A stretch of DNA of 64,000 nt from Methanoregula sp. (GTDB taxonomy: Archaea > Halobacteriota > Methanomicrobia > Methanomicrobiales > Methanospirillaceae): NCBI RefSeq assembly GCF_028712425.1, contig NZ_JAQTQD010000006.1, forward strand, positions 1-64,000. The letters are read 5' to 3'. The notes below the pieces were generated by a model. It did no database searches and was not told the DNA's origin. It saw only the letters and a program-made list of their open reading frames with translations. The position numbers and the translations under genes are program-made. Of the stretch, positions 7,803-52,728 are shown in pieces (the first letter of the stretch is position 1; each line of letters opens with the position of its first letter).

Positions 7803-7863
7803 GATGGTGTGGCTCCGTGGAAAAAAACCGGAAGAAGAATTGACACCCCCTTGCGCCTCCGAG

Positions 7864-7910
7864 TGGTTCTTCAGAACCATGAGGATGAGAAGAACTCAAA
7901 AGAGTTCTTC
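7864..7910 (+). repeat. Two-hairpin intergenic element, copy 1
   Basis: First hairpin: TGGTTC-TTCA-GAACCA (7864-7879). Second hairpin: GAAGAACTC-AAAA-GAGTTCTTC (7889-7910), a perfect 9-bp stem. A purine-rich linker TGAGGATGA joins them. The same plan recurs at 8047, 8669, 8814, 13601, 52373, 52421 and 52485 with different but still paired stem bases. Confidence 0.8.
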
Positions 7911-7914
7911 GTAG

Positions 7915-8040
7915 ATCCCAGCCCCCAAGGGGGCGGGGGCGCTGAGGATGTCTCAGCATTACCTGTACGAGAATCATCACTGGTTGGACAGGTAATTCTG
8001 GAGTCATCGCTTCGGGGGGGTGCCCACGCGGCGGGGGCTT
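7915..8040 (+). repeat. Longer hairpin-mosaic repeat (family B), divergent copy
   Basis: This shares a block order with 28725-28990 and 38641-38845: a C-run/G-run hairpin (GCCCCC-AA-GGGGGC), a short hairpin with GAT in the loop (TGAG-GATGT-CTCA) and then ATTACCTG. Here ATTACCTGT is matched by a downstream ACAGGTAAT, forming a long stem-loop across 7960-8000. It is bracketed directly by two-hairpin elements on both sides. Similarity to the other copies is partial. Confidence 0.5.
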
Positions 8041-8046
8041 GTCCGA

Positions 8047-8094
8047 CTGGTTCATCAGAACCAGGAGAATGAGAAGAACGCTTCAGCGTTCTTC
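8047..8094 (+). repeat. Two-hairpin intergenic element, copy 2
   Basis: First hairpin CTGGTTC-ATCA-GAACCAG (8047-8064), linker GAGAATGA, second hairpin GAAGAACGC-TTCA-GCGTTCTTC (8073-8094). Both stems are perfect. It lies downstream of the 167-residue gene (leftward) and upstream of the 53-residue gene. Confidence 0.8.
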
Positions 8095-8149
8095 GAGCCC
8101 CCGAGAGCGTCAAATCTCTTCCTGATTCTTCCTGATTCGGATTATCTCT

Positions 8150-8653
8150 CTACGCGAGTGCCGCCACCGAGTCCGCCCAGGTCTCGACCCGGGTTCGGAT
8201 TGCGTCATCCGAGTACGAGGTGATGCTGACCGATTCGCGGGTGAACGTGACCATGTAGATCTCCCCGCCGGCATCGTGGCATTTCAGGGTTGCCGAGTAG
8301 GACTCGTGGGAAGTGTCCCGGACCGGTGTGCCCCCGTGGGCGTTGGCAAGGTCCGTGTTCTCCAGGAGCGCGGTTGCGCCGGCATTGAACCCGGCAATTG
8401 TGATGAACTTCGCTGAGTCCGTCCCGACAACTTTTGCATCGTTGTCCTGGTACGCGATCTTTGCCACGTAGGATTCCTTAGTCTTCTCGACCGGTGCATG
8501 GTTGACACCGGCGCTCTCATAGGCTGTGCAGGCAAACGGGTTGTCGGTAGTGACCGACTGGACGATCGTGTTGAACGCTGCCACATTTTCTATCGGGGCC
8601 GCGAGCTTGCGGACCGCCGACTTTACTACGGTTTTCTGTACGAAATCTGCCAT
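8150..8653 (-). CDS. Uncharacterised 167-aa protein (DUF1659/DUF2922-like guess)
   Basis: A 167-residue protein starting MADFVQKTVVKSAVRKLAAP, with a ribosome binding site GGAGA before the ATG. It is rich in Thr, Ala and Ser and has no signal peptide or membrane span. Alternating hydrophobic patterns (YVAKIAYQDNDAKVVGTD, IYMVTFTRESVSITSYSD) suggest beta sheet. The last 15 residues read as a helix. In bacteria, small beta-rich DUF1659/DUF2922 proteins are encoded beside YvrJ-like holin-like peptides, and here a comparable peptide follows; that parallel is my inference and not a motif match. It is probably the first gene of the leftward group. Confidence 0.65.
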   Translation of the reverse strand: MADFVQKTVVKSAVRKLAAPIENVAAFNTIVQSVTTDNPFACTAYESAGVNHAPVEKTKESYVAKIAYQDNDAKVVGTDSAKFITIAGFNAGATALLENTDLANAHGGTPVRDTSHESYSATLKCHDAGGEIYMVTFTRESVSITSYSDDAIRTRVETWADSVAALA

Positions 8654-8668
8654 TTTTGAATCTCCTGA

Positions 8669-8715
8669 GGGTCCATCAGAACCCGAAGGAAGAGAAGAAT
8701 CCGTAAGGATTCTTC
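8669..8715 (+). repeat. Two-hairpin intergenic element, copy 3
   Basis: First hairpin GGGTCC-ATCA-GAACCC with one mismatch (8669-8684), linker GAAGGAAGA, second hairpin GAAGAATCC-GTAA-GGATTCTTC (8694-8715). It lies immediately upstream of the 167-residue gene's start and would be in its 5' leader, in opposite orientation to the gene. Confidence 0.75.
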
Positions 8716-8813
8716 GAACTCCCTGGATCCGTTTCGAACTCCTCCATTTGTTCTCATCAGAGAGATTCTCCGAATCCCTCTCGTTTCTGCGTCATCGGGG
8801 CCCCTTTGACAGC

Positions 8814-8860
8814 GAAGAATGCAGGTGCATTCTTCTCGTCCACGGGGTTCTGCAGAACCC
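8814..8860 (-). repeat. Two-hairpin intergenic element, copy 4 (inverted)
   Basis: Read on the minus strand: first hairpin GGGTTC-TGCA-GAACCC (8845-8860), then a nine-base linker, then GAAGAATGC-ACCT-GCATTCTTC (8814-8835). The inner three stem pairs differ from the other copies but still pair. Together with copy 3 it fills part of the gene-free stretch 8654-9082; the remainder is A/T-rich and without a gene. Confidence 0.75.
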
Positions 8861-8982
8861 ATTGGACATACAATAGTAGAACCTGGTAGGCTATCTGTCT
8901 GGATGAATAAATTTTGAAAAGCAAAATTAGAGAGAATTGCGGGGGATTCAGGAGAATCGGGGCACAGATATTTGGAATTGGG

Positions 8983-9082: not shown

Positions 9083-9409
9083 TTAATCCAGGCCCATCAG
9101 GTCCCGGATGAGCGCCGCGATTGCGAGCCGGTGGTCTTCCCCAATCGTTCCGATCCGGTGGTGGAACCGCTCCCGGTCCAGGGAGACCATCTGAAAGACA
9201 AGGGCGATGCTCTCAGTGTCGAGACCGTTATGCTCATCGGGGGAGATGGCGTGCGTATGCGAGAGCCGTGCGGTGTTTACGTTGCTTGTCAGTGGGACGA
9301 CCATGACAATACCGTTGGCGCTTCCGAAAATGATCGCCGACCGTATCCCCCGCTGCTCGTGTCCTTTCCCATCGGTGAGATCAACGAGCCAGATGTCGCC
9401 GCTCTTCAT
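9083..9409 (-). CDS. PemK/MazF-family endoribonuclease toxin
   Basis: A 108-residue SH3-like barrel protein. The opening MKSGDIWLVDLTDGKGHEQR followed by GIRSAIIFG is the MazF/PemK N-terminal signature (GDIW...G.E..G.RPA), with the usual Pro replaced by Ser. The middle VVPLTSNVNTARLSHTHAI and LVFQMVSLDRERF also fit the family, whose members cut mRNA. It is the third gene of a leftward operon, four bases after the preceding gene. The usual small AbrB or MetJ-type antitoxin is missing; the two upstream proteins are the candidates for that role. Confidence 0.85.
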   Translation of the reverse strand: MKSGDIWLVDLTDGKGHEQRGIRSAIIFGSANGIVMVVPLTSNVNTARLSHTHAISPDEHNGLDTESIALVFQMVSLDRERFHHRIGTIGEDHRLAIAALIRDLMGLD

Positions 9410-13580: not shown

Positions 13581-13600
13581 TTTTCCACAAACCTGAACTC

Positions 13601-13646
13601 GAAGAACGCTGACGCGTTCTTCTCGACCTCCTGGTCTGATGACCAG
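13601..13646 (-). repeat. Two-hairpin intergenic element, copy 5 (inverted)
   Basis: On the minus strand: CTGGTC-ATCA-GACCAG (13631-13646), linker GAGGTCGA, then GAAGAACGC-GTCA-GCGTTCTTC (13601-13622). Both stems are perfect. It is placed between a complete and a partial copy of repeat family C. Confidence 0.8.
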
Positions 13647-13654
13647 TCGGTTTT

Positions 13655-28525: not shown

Positions 28526-28724
28526 GTTTCCTGCTCCTGATTGTTAGATGGTTGTCCGGTTATTTAAGGCAATGTCAGATGGCAGGAGGGTAACGTGTCA
28601 GAGAATACCTGTCACAGCATAAACAGGTCAGGCAAAAGAGGGGATGATGGTACCTTTATGTTCCCCTGAGAATTTTCAAAAAAAAGTACTCTGGTGAATA
28701 CCAGTTTCCTATTTCGATCACACC

Positions 28725-28990
28725 CCCCCTTGCACCAGCCCTGCCTCGAGGGGGCGAGGGCACAGGCGATGCCTCCATATTACCTGAATGGGATACTCCG
28801 ACGAGGTGTTGCTTTCATAAAAAGGAAATTGATTCCGCCGCGGGGCGCCCTTCGGGAAGGTAATCGTCGCATCAGCGAGGATTACCTGGAGAAGGCATCA
28901 GCCTTCGACTTTGGCAGCGGCCGTTCATCACAAGCGGGGGTATGGGGGCATCAGCCCCCATCATTATACCATTCCATTTTATTCAGGGAA
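28725..28990 (+). repeat. Hairpin-mosaic repeat (family B) carrying an inserted two-hairpin unit
   Basis: Related to 38641-38845 and more distantly to 7915-8040. Shared blocks in order are: a G/C hairpin, GGCGATGCCTC, TATTACCTGAA, GCCGCGG, and at the end TATGGGGGCATCAGCCC. Relative to the 38-kb copy, 53 bp (28855-28907) are inserted between two TTCG copies. The insert consists of a long hairpin (28858-28887) and GAAGGC-ATCA-GCCTTC (28891-28906), both with ATCA loops. A further hairpin TGGGGGC-ATCA-GCCCCCA is at 28943-28960. The gene-free stretch 28526-29034 otherwise holds only an inverted repeat ACCTGT/ACAGGT near 28604-28630. Confidence 0.7.
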
Positions 28991-52323: not shown

Positions 52324-52372
52324 AGTGCCAATATTTTCTACTGGAAAGGTTGTTAAGGTTTGTGCATTCGAA

Positions 52373-52420
52373 GAAGTCCATCAGGACTTCGAGAAAGAGA
52401 AGAACGCATCAGCGTTCTTC
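52373..52420 (+). repeat. Two-hairpin intergenic element, copy 6
   Basis: First hairpin GAAGTCC-ATCA-GGACTTC (52373-52390), linker GAGAAAGA, second hairpin GAAGAACGC-ATCA-GCGTTCTTC (52399-52420). Both stems are perfect and both loops are ATCA. It is the left member of a cluster of three in the gene-free stretch 52324-52728, which otherwise shows no gene. Confidence 0.8.
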
Positions 52421-52465
52421 GAAGAATCCTAACGGATTCTTCTCATTTCTCGGGTTTGATAACCC
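52421..52465 (-). repeat. Two-hairpin intergenic element, copy 7 (inverted)
   Basis: Directly abuts copy 6 in mirror orientation. On the minus strand: GGGTT-ATCA-AACCC (52452-52465), linker GAGAAATGA, then GAAGAATCC-GTTA-GGATTCTTC (52421-52442). Confidence 0.75.
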
Positions 52466-52484
52466 TCCAAATTTTGAAGTCCGA

Positions 52485-52530
52485 CAGGCAAGAAGGCCTG
52501 GAGGAGGAGAAGAACGCGGAAGCGTTTTTT
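52485..52530 (+). repeat. Two-hairpin intergenic element, copy 8 (G-U paired)
   Basis: First hairpin CAGGC-AAGAAG-GCCTG (52485-52500), linker GAGGAGGA, second hairpin GAAGAACGC-GGAA-GCGTTTTTT (52509-52530). Two positions of the second stem pair only as G-U, which is stable in RNA but not in a DNA duplex. It could double as a terminator because of its T run. Confidence 0.65.
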
Positions 52531-52728
52531 AAAAGGTTTGGACGGCCCCGTCAGAATCAGGGAGAATCTGGTTTGGAGATTCCAGGATTGTGCAACGGGC
52601 TGGAGCAGGAAGCGCCCATTACATTCATCCTGCTGACGGGGCACCCTGATAATCGTTACCTCCGGCACAAGGGAACAACAAGGGCTATTGCCCTTCAGAA
52701 CGCACATGAATGACAGGAACGTGGGATC

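Follow-up and report, generated by a model that had tools for sequence, protein, structure and literature searches.

The window analyzed here, a 64,000-nt stretch of the 2.67-Mb genome of Methanoregula sp. (G000), carries eight copies of a short element built from two adjacent hairpins, five on the forward strand and three on the reverse, all of them listed in the initial annotation. A check of the listed positions placed the forward copies at 7860, 8044, 8665, 52370 and 52482 and the reverse copies at 8810–8864, 13597–13649 and 52417–52469; the limits of the full units described below differ by a few nucleotides. Copy 1 (7857–7912, +) has the outer arms TCC/GGA, the inner hairpin GTGGTTC-TTCA-GAACCAT and a second hairpin (hp2) of GAAGAACTC-AAAA-GAGTTCTTC; it is flanked by CCCCCTTGCGCC and AGCCCCC..GGGGGCGGGGGCGC, which are parts of a larger dispersed repeat. 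Copy 2 (8041–8096, +) combines outer TCC/GAA and inner CTGGTTC-ATCA-GAACCAG with hp2 GAAGAACGC-TTCA-GCGTTCTTC, and copy 3 (8662–8717, +) has outer TCCT/AGGA and hp2 GAAGAATCC-GTAA-GGATTCTTC. Copy 4 (8812–8865, −), with hp2 GAAGAATGC-ACCT-GCATTCTTC, has a decayed first GA pair. Copy 5 (13599–13651, −) is formed by outer ACC/GGT, inner CTGGTC-ATCA-GACCAG and hp2 GAAGAACGC-GTCA-GCGTTCTTC. The remaining three form a cluster upstream of hisD: copy 6 (52366–52422, +; outer TTC/GAA, inner GAAGTCC-ATCA-GGACTTC, hp2 GAAGAACGC-ATCA-GCGTTCTTC), copy 7 (52419–52472, −; inner GGGTT-ATCA-AACCC, hp2 GAAGAATCC-GTTA-GGATTCTTC) and copy 8 (52482–52534, +; inner CAGGC..GCCTG). Copies 6 and 7 (at 52370 and 52417) stand tail to tail and have TTCTTCGAAGAA in common. 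The hp2 plan first proposed for all copies, GAAGAAnnC-N4-GnnTTCTTC, is exact in seven of the eight, but the 3' arm of copy 8 has decayed to GCGTTTTTT.

We also identified two reverse-strand genes in one gene-poor stretch. The gene at 8150–8653 encodes a 167-aa protein (MADFVQ...) that has no Pfam match, and the gene at 9083–9409 encodes a PemK/MazF-like toxin (PF02452, E 5.5e-19). The MADFVQ... family has several members, all of which have elements nearby; the others are at C17:1278–1781 and C35:848–1351 in G000 and at L164 16307–16810 in G033, a relative with a complete chromosome.

The hp2 pattern extends well beyond the window. With at most one mismatch it occurs at 52 places in the whole G000 genome versus none for a reversed-pattern control, and with at most two mismatches at 109 versus 18, which excludes chance. 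The initial annotation was right that the copies belong to a dispersed family, which proved larger than claimed: a covariance model built from the eight copies recovered approximately 125 non-overlapping elements in G000, which group into 72 clusters and almost all lie between genes as judged against simple in-house gene calls. G033 has approximately 108. Matches were found in 38 of 232 genomes in the search of related Methanomicrobiales that had been suggested, and their spread is patchy. The element is high-copy in seven Methanoregula species and in several members of the sister genus g20 of the same family. Other relatives in the order carry between one and five copies or lack it altogether, and it is absent from most related genomes. 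Among 84,980 prokaryote species, the exact hp2 pattern matched in Methanomicrobiales only, and it had no match in the IMG/VR viral contigs.

Each unit is approximately 54 nt long (48–62 nt) and follows a fixed plan. An outer arm of 3–4 bp is followed by GA/GA, an inner stem of 5–7 bp and a loop that is usually ATCA or a variant; after the outer arm of the first hairpin (hp1) come any one nucleotide, GA, GAAG-stem-CTTC and GA. The purine linker of the initial annotation is thus present but better read as GA, outer arm (GGA and variants), N and GA. Its two covarying hairpins also stand, but an outer helix below the first stem had been overlooked. The first stem runs on below a tandem GA/GA mismatch, with GA on both strands, into a covarying helix of 3–4 bp in which the linker arm pairs with the 3–4 nt just upstream of hp1. 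The outer arms vary widely (TCC/GGA, ACC/GGT, TTTC/GAAA, TCTC/GAGA, TGGT/ACCA, TGCT/AGCA, TGTC/GACA and AATC/GATT). GA also lies at either side of hp2; the base before hp2 and the first base after it are paired in 59% of all copies, and in most geometry classes this flanking pair forms in 50–69% versus 28–47% after shuffling.

The compensatory stem changes noted earlier recur in this much larger set and reach into the outer helix. Three complementary pairs join the outer arms in 68% of 130 distinct copies, for which outer-arm pairing was no condition of selection, versus a mean of 24% and a maximum of 34% in 1000 shuffles. The covariance model served only to harvest copies, and covariation was counted in later alignments. 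For three gapless sets, the only criteria of choice were the spacing of GA and the anchor GAAG..CTTC, with no pairing required; paired cells made up 94.3, 93.3 and 94.3% of these sets versus 82, 81 and 78% when shuffled, with covariation scores of 0.38, 0.36 and 0.46 versus 0.12–0.16. None of 500 shuffles reached the observed paired fraction or covariation score in any set, although the shuffles take no account of relatedness and these figures are not probabilities. Sliding the sets lowered the paired fraction to 33–53%. In hp2, 93% of 131 sequences have a standard fourth variable pair (mostly GC, CG or TA) versus 49% expected.

The GA/GA mismatches are kept at fixed places in 78–85% of copies. 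Among perfect hairpins of at least 7 bp in sampled intergenic DNA of G000, 103 of 236 are GA-flanked on both sides. Per 100 kb, the density of such GA-flanked hairpins is 9.4 for the window and 5.0 for G033, compared with 0.6, 0 and 0 for three Methanoregula that are not carriers; the GA/GA grammar is thus specific. RNA and DNA energy parameters alike predict modestly stronger folding for the GA strand, so this preference does not tell a DNA from an RNA intermediate. Searches against Rfam, including at permissive thresholds, yielded chance hits only and no match above the curated threshold. K-turns, C/D boxes and attC sites were dropped on anatomy alone, as the GA/GA is symmetric and without a bulge and there is no C/D or attC core.

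Comparison of orthologous loci revealed units that are present in one genome and missing from another. Approximately 35 of the G000 cluster loci have an orthologous locus in G033, with flank identities of 75–100%. Filled and empty pairs were identified by scanning for HSP gaps in place of a joined-flank search, which had yielded mostly array artefacts. Whole units of 53–57 nt are cleanly missing from the orthologous site of the other genome at at least eight distinct sites (shared sites counted once), and the ends of the missing segment match the ends of the fold: the unit starts with the outer arm and ends one to a few nucleotides past the last GA. At clean sites the empty allele departs from a perfect junction by −3 to +2 nt, and no target duplication is recognizable, the ambiguity being at most 1–3 nt. 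These insertion polymorphisms between species support one of the options initially raised, a mobile element recognized by its hairpins. No fixed target sequence or tetranucleotide was seen at the insertion points. Insertion positions do recur in two hosts, hp1 (GG^TC) and the fam2 repeat (CCCTTCGGGG^CGGCGGC).

Some insertions hit another copy of the element. At G033 L294, hp1 of an element is interrupted by a reverse unit of 54 nt (ATCCGAAACC...CTCTTCGAA). The orthologous element in G000 (C42:56322) is intact, and the interrupted halves of hp1 still match, which identifies the event as an insertion. In the G033 orthologue of window copy 3, a second unit likewise interrupts hp1 at this position, and hp2 (GAAGAACCC-GTCA-GGGTTCTTC) differs from GAAGAATCC..GGATTCTTC by a compensatory change from T-A to C-G. 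The nested arrangement was found at three further loci. The element at G000 C50:53089 has no counterpart at the orthologous G033 L158, nor in paralogues of its host. The hisD-upstream cluster is absent in G033 and at least partly present, at the same insertion point, in a further relative (G014); G033:742584 was rejected as an orthologue of the element at 52370 as the flanks differ. No gene was seen to carry an in-frame insertion of the kind known from Rickettsia palindromic elements; the one gene-like case checked is a decayed gene with a 56-nt insert that shifts the frame. Some copies are carried within larger repeats, and window copy 5 (at 13599) lies between direct repeats of approximately 56 nt that are single in G033 and part of a larger repeat unit. 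Recombination may explain copy 5 and, given these two observations, accounts for part of the spread.

The same genomes contain other dispersed repeats. A larger palindrome-rich repeat of approximately 250–430 nt (CCCCCTTGCGCC ... GGTATTACC ... GCCGCCGCGGGG ... ATGGGGGCATCAGCCCCCAT) hosts two-hairpin units and lies at 7835–8040 and 28721–28970 in the window and in the C18:151016 region (L057), C44 (L071) and C12 (L086) of G000. The copy at 28721–28970 (+) is of the type that hosts copy 1 and lacks the two-hairpin element, providing an empty comparison within the window. The whole C18:151016 copy is missing at the orthologous G033 L252, apparently an A-rich target. A second repeat of approximately 350–480 nt, with GAAATCC/GGATTTC near its ends, occurs in G000 at C14:33.6k, C18:106k, C5:28.9k, C46:1.6k and C8:117.7k (L089, L056, L075, L100 and L080, respectively); it looks MITE-like, since one copy is missing at the orthologous G033 L246 and a T6 run is duplicated. 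We also identified a two-hairpin unit of 45–49 nt that lacks the GA motifs (AGCTTCATTCCGAAGGAATGAAGCAGAGGGATTTTGAAAAATCCCTCT). It is cleanly present or absent (L287, L256, L249 and L075 versus L286/L194), and such a GA-less unit, of 48 nt, appears to move in the same way as the GA-flanked unit. Finally, the orthologous loci G000 C32:77672 (L067) and G033 L268 carry different numbers of a GA-flanked hairpin module from another repeat, the tandem unit being approximately 80 nt.

Placement and orientation bear on whether the element acts as RNA. Units occur in both orientations, in head-to-tail or tail-to-tail groups and in tandem arrays of up to nine; head-to-tail copies abut at fixed spacing even where they differ in sequence, and some copies are tail-to-tail pairs of the kind seen in copies 6 and 7. 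A structured regulatory, terminator or processing RNA, selected within the transcripts of neighboring genes, would be consistent with covarying stems and with tandem GA pairs that stabilize one strand. It would also fit the preference for convergent 3' regions, as clusters lie in 32 convergent (23 + 9) and 11 divergent (9 + 2) gaps versus 102 and 158, respectively, among background gaps of at least 80 nt, and the T6 runs that immediately precede certain elements (9 of 123 versus a 4% background). However, strand is even with respect to co-directional neighbor genes (27 same, 34 opposite), units come and go at orthologous genes of close species, they form tandem arrays, and most related genomes do without them. 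The RNA options of the initial annotation are therefore disfavored, and we regard a cis-acting RNA role as improbable. Nor does the complete G033 chromosome have any replichore (replication-strand) bias in unit orientation. Covariation itself has another possible source. At the hisD locus, both the insertion point and hp2 are identical in G000 and G014, but one has GAAGTCC-ATCA-GGACTTC as its hp1 and the other GGGGTTT-ATCA-AAACCC. Similarly, the upper stem and loop of hp2 were exchanged wholesale between G033 L110 (AACCC-GTCA-GGGTT) and G000 L058 (ATTTTCC-ATCG-GGTAAAT) in nearly identical surroundings. Such changes are unlikely to stem from point mutations that were later compensated; copying from another unit or template switching, which creates and maintains hairpins (PMC8794818), is likelier. 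The earlier statement that covariation implies selection on a folded form thus loses force even though the covariation is real: whole arms are replaced in one go at orthologous sites with near-identical flanks, and covariation alone is no proof of selection on a folded RNA. These replacements would suit decaying palindromic repeats in which quasi-palindrome template switching and conversion between copies mimic covariation and no fold is selected. Yet template switching across a stem would turn the GA/GA mismatches into pairs, and their persistence argues that the shape is still under some constraint. Mutational decay also leaves the clean insertion of whole units unexplained, and we consider this reading rather unlikely.

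The reading that remains probable, and that we favor, is a non-autonomous mobile DNA element of approximately 54 nt that is defined by its fold. Its extragenic location, high copy number, inverted dimers, tandem arrays, convergent-gene preference and lack of target duplication would also suit a true REP/REPIN family mobilized by a RAYT or another Y1 transposase of the IS200/IS605 type. The Y1_Tnp domain of RAYT and TnpA (PF01797) was, however, absent from all six carriers tested, though divergent Y1 proteins may escape the profile, which was positive in E. coli, other control genomes and four relatives. The units also lack a GTAG or CGTC tag. The REP/RAYT label of the initial annotation consequently fails, Y1/RAYT was rejected as the mobilizer, and membership in such a family is very improbable. 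Other candidate mobilizers were rejected as well: 10 of 11 carriers lack reverse transcriptase, and TnpB is found in carriers and non-carriers alike and is uncorrelated with carriage. In the search for Y2 transposases, the control genomes themselves gave no matches. No transposase-like gene was found between neighboring elements, and neither a transposase nor a repeated gene family goes along with them.

A fold-defined mobile element could spread as follows. The single strand with the GA pairs, exposed as DNA during replication or as an RNA copy, would fold, and a putative trans-acting enzyme would recognize it by shape. The folded unit would then be inserted beside or inside target hairpins. 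Copies would remain in the genome as selfish or near-neutral repeats, chiefly in gaps between convergent genes, while copying between units or template switching would renew the stems and allow the shape to outlive the sequence. More tentatively, and with somewhat more doubt than confidence, we suggest a class of archaeal mobile elements whose identity is the fold: GA-locked two-hairpin units that a putative shape-reading machinery cuts and joins at the fold ends, into or beside hairpins, and whose arms can be swapped with mobility kept. More than 100 copies in archaeal chromosomes, one of the genomes being complete, together with clean filled and empty sites would make the mechanism testable in a cellular genome; two-hairpin mobile units had previously been described from mitochondria, with no enzyme known. 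The arm replacements further illustrate that DNA elements can come to show textbook covariation through replacement at the level of hairpins, a warning against taking it alone as proof of a functional RNA.

The element shares features with several described systems, although no archaeal counterpart was found in the open-access literature. As in MITEs, the units are small, non-autonomous and intergenic, and larger companion repeats in the same genomes look MITE-like; unlike MITEs, they have neither a unit-spanning terminal inverted repeat nor a target-site duplication. REP/REPIN sequences with RAYT transposases fall into GTAG and CGTC superfamilies, and the CGTC superfamily is likewise without a known transposase (PMC3733652). 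The archaeal element shares with them short extragenic high-copy palindromes, inverted dimers, clusters and a preference for sites downstream of genes. In contrast, its unit has two hairpins in approximately 54 nt with ends that are the fold ends, its conserved ends are outer arm-GA and CTTC-GA rather than a GTAG/CGTC tag, and the six carriers tested have no RAYT. A different comparison is offered by the double-hairpin elements (DHEs), reportedly the subject of work by Paquin et al. in 2000. According to two sources, DHEs occur in the mitochondrial DNA of the fungi Allomyces and Schizosaccharomyces (PMC10085805, PMC2800124), and their lack of flanking duplication is the reason given for proposing an RNA route (PMC2800124). 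Like DHEs, the archaeal element has two adjacent hairpins in each short unit, mainly intergenic dispersal with insertion patterns that differ between close relatives, and no flanking duplication. It differs in residing in a chromosome at more than 100 copies, rather than in fungal mitochondrial DNA, and in its fixed GA/GA tandem mismatches and outer helix. Judged by analogy, DHEs are the closest described kind, the likeness being one of apparent working and not of membership.
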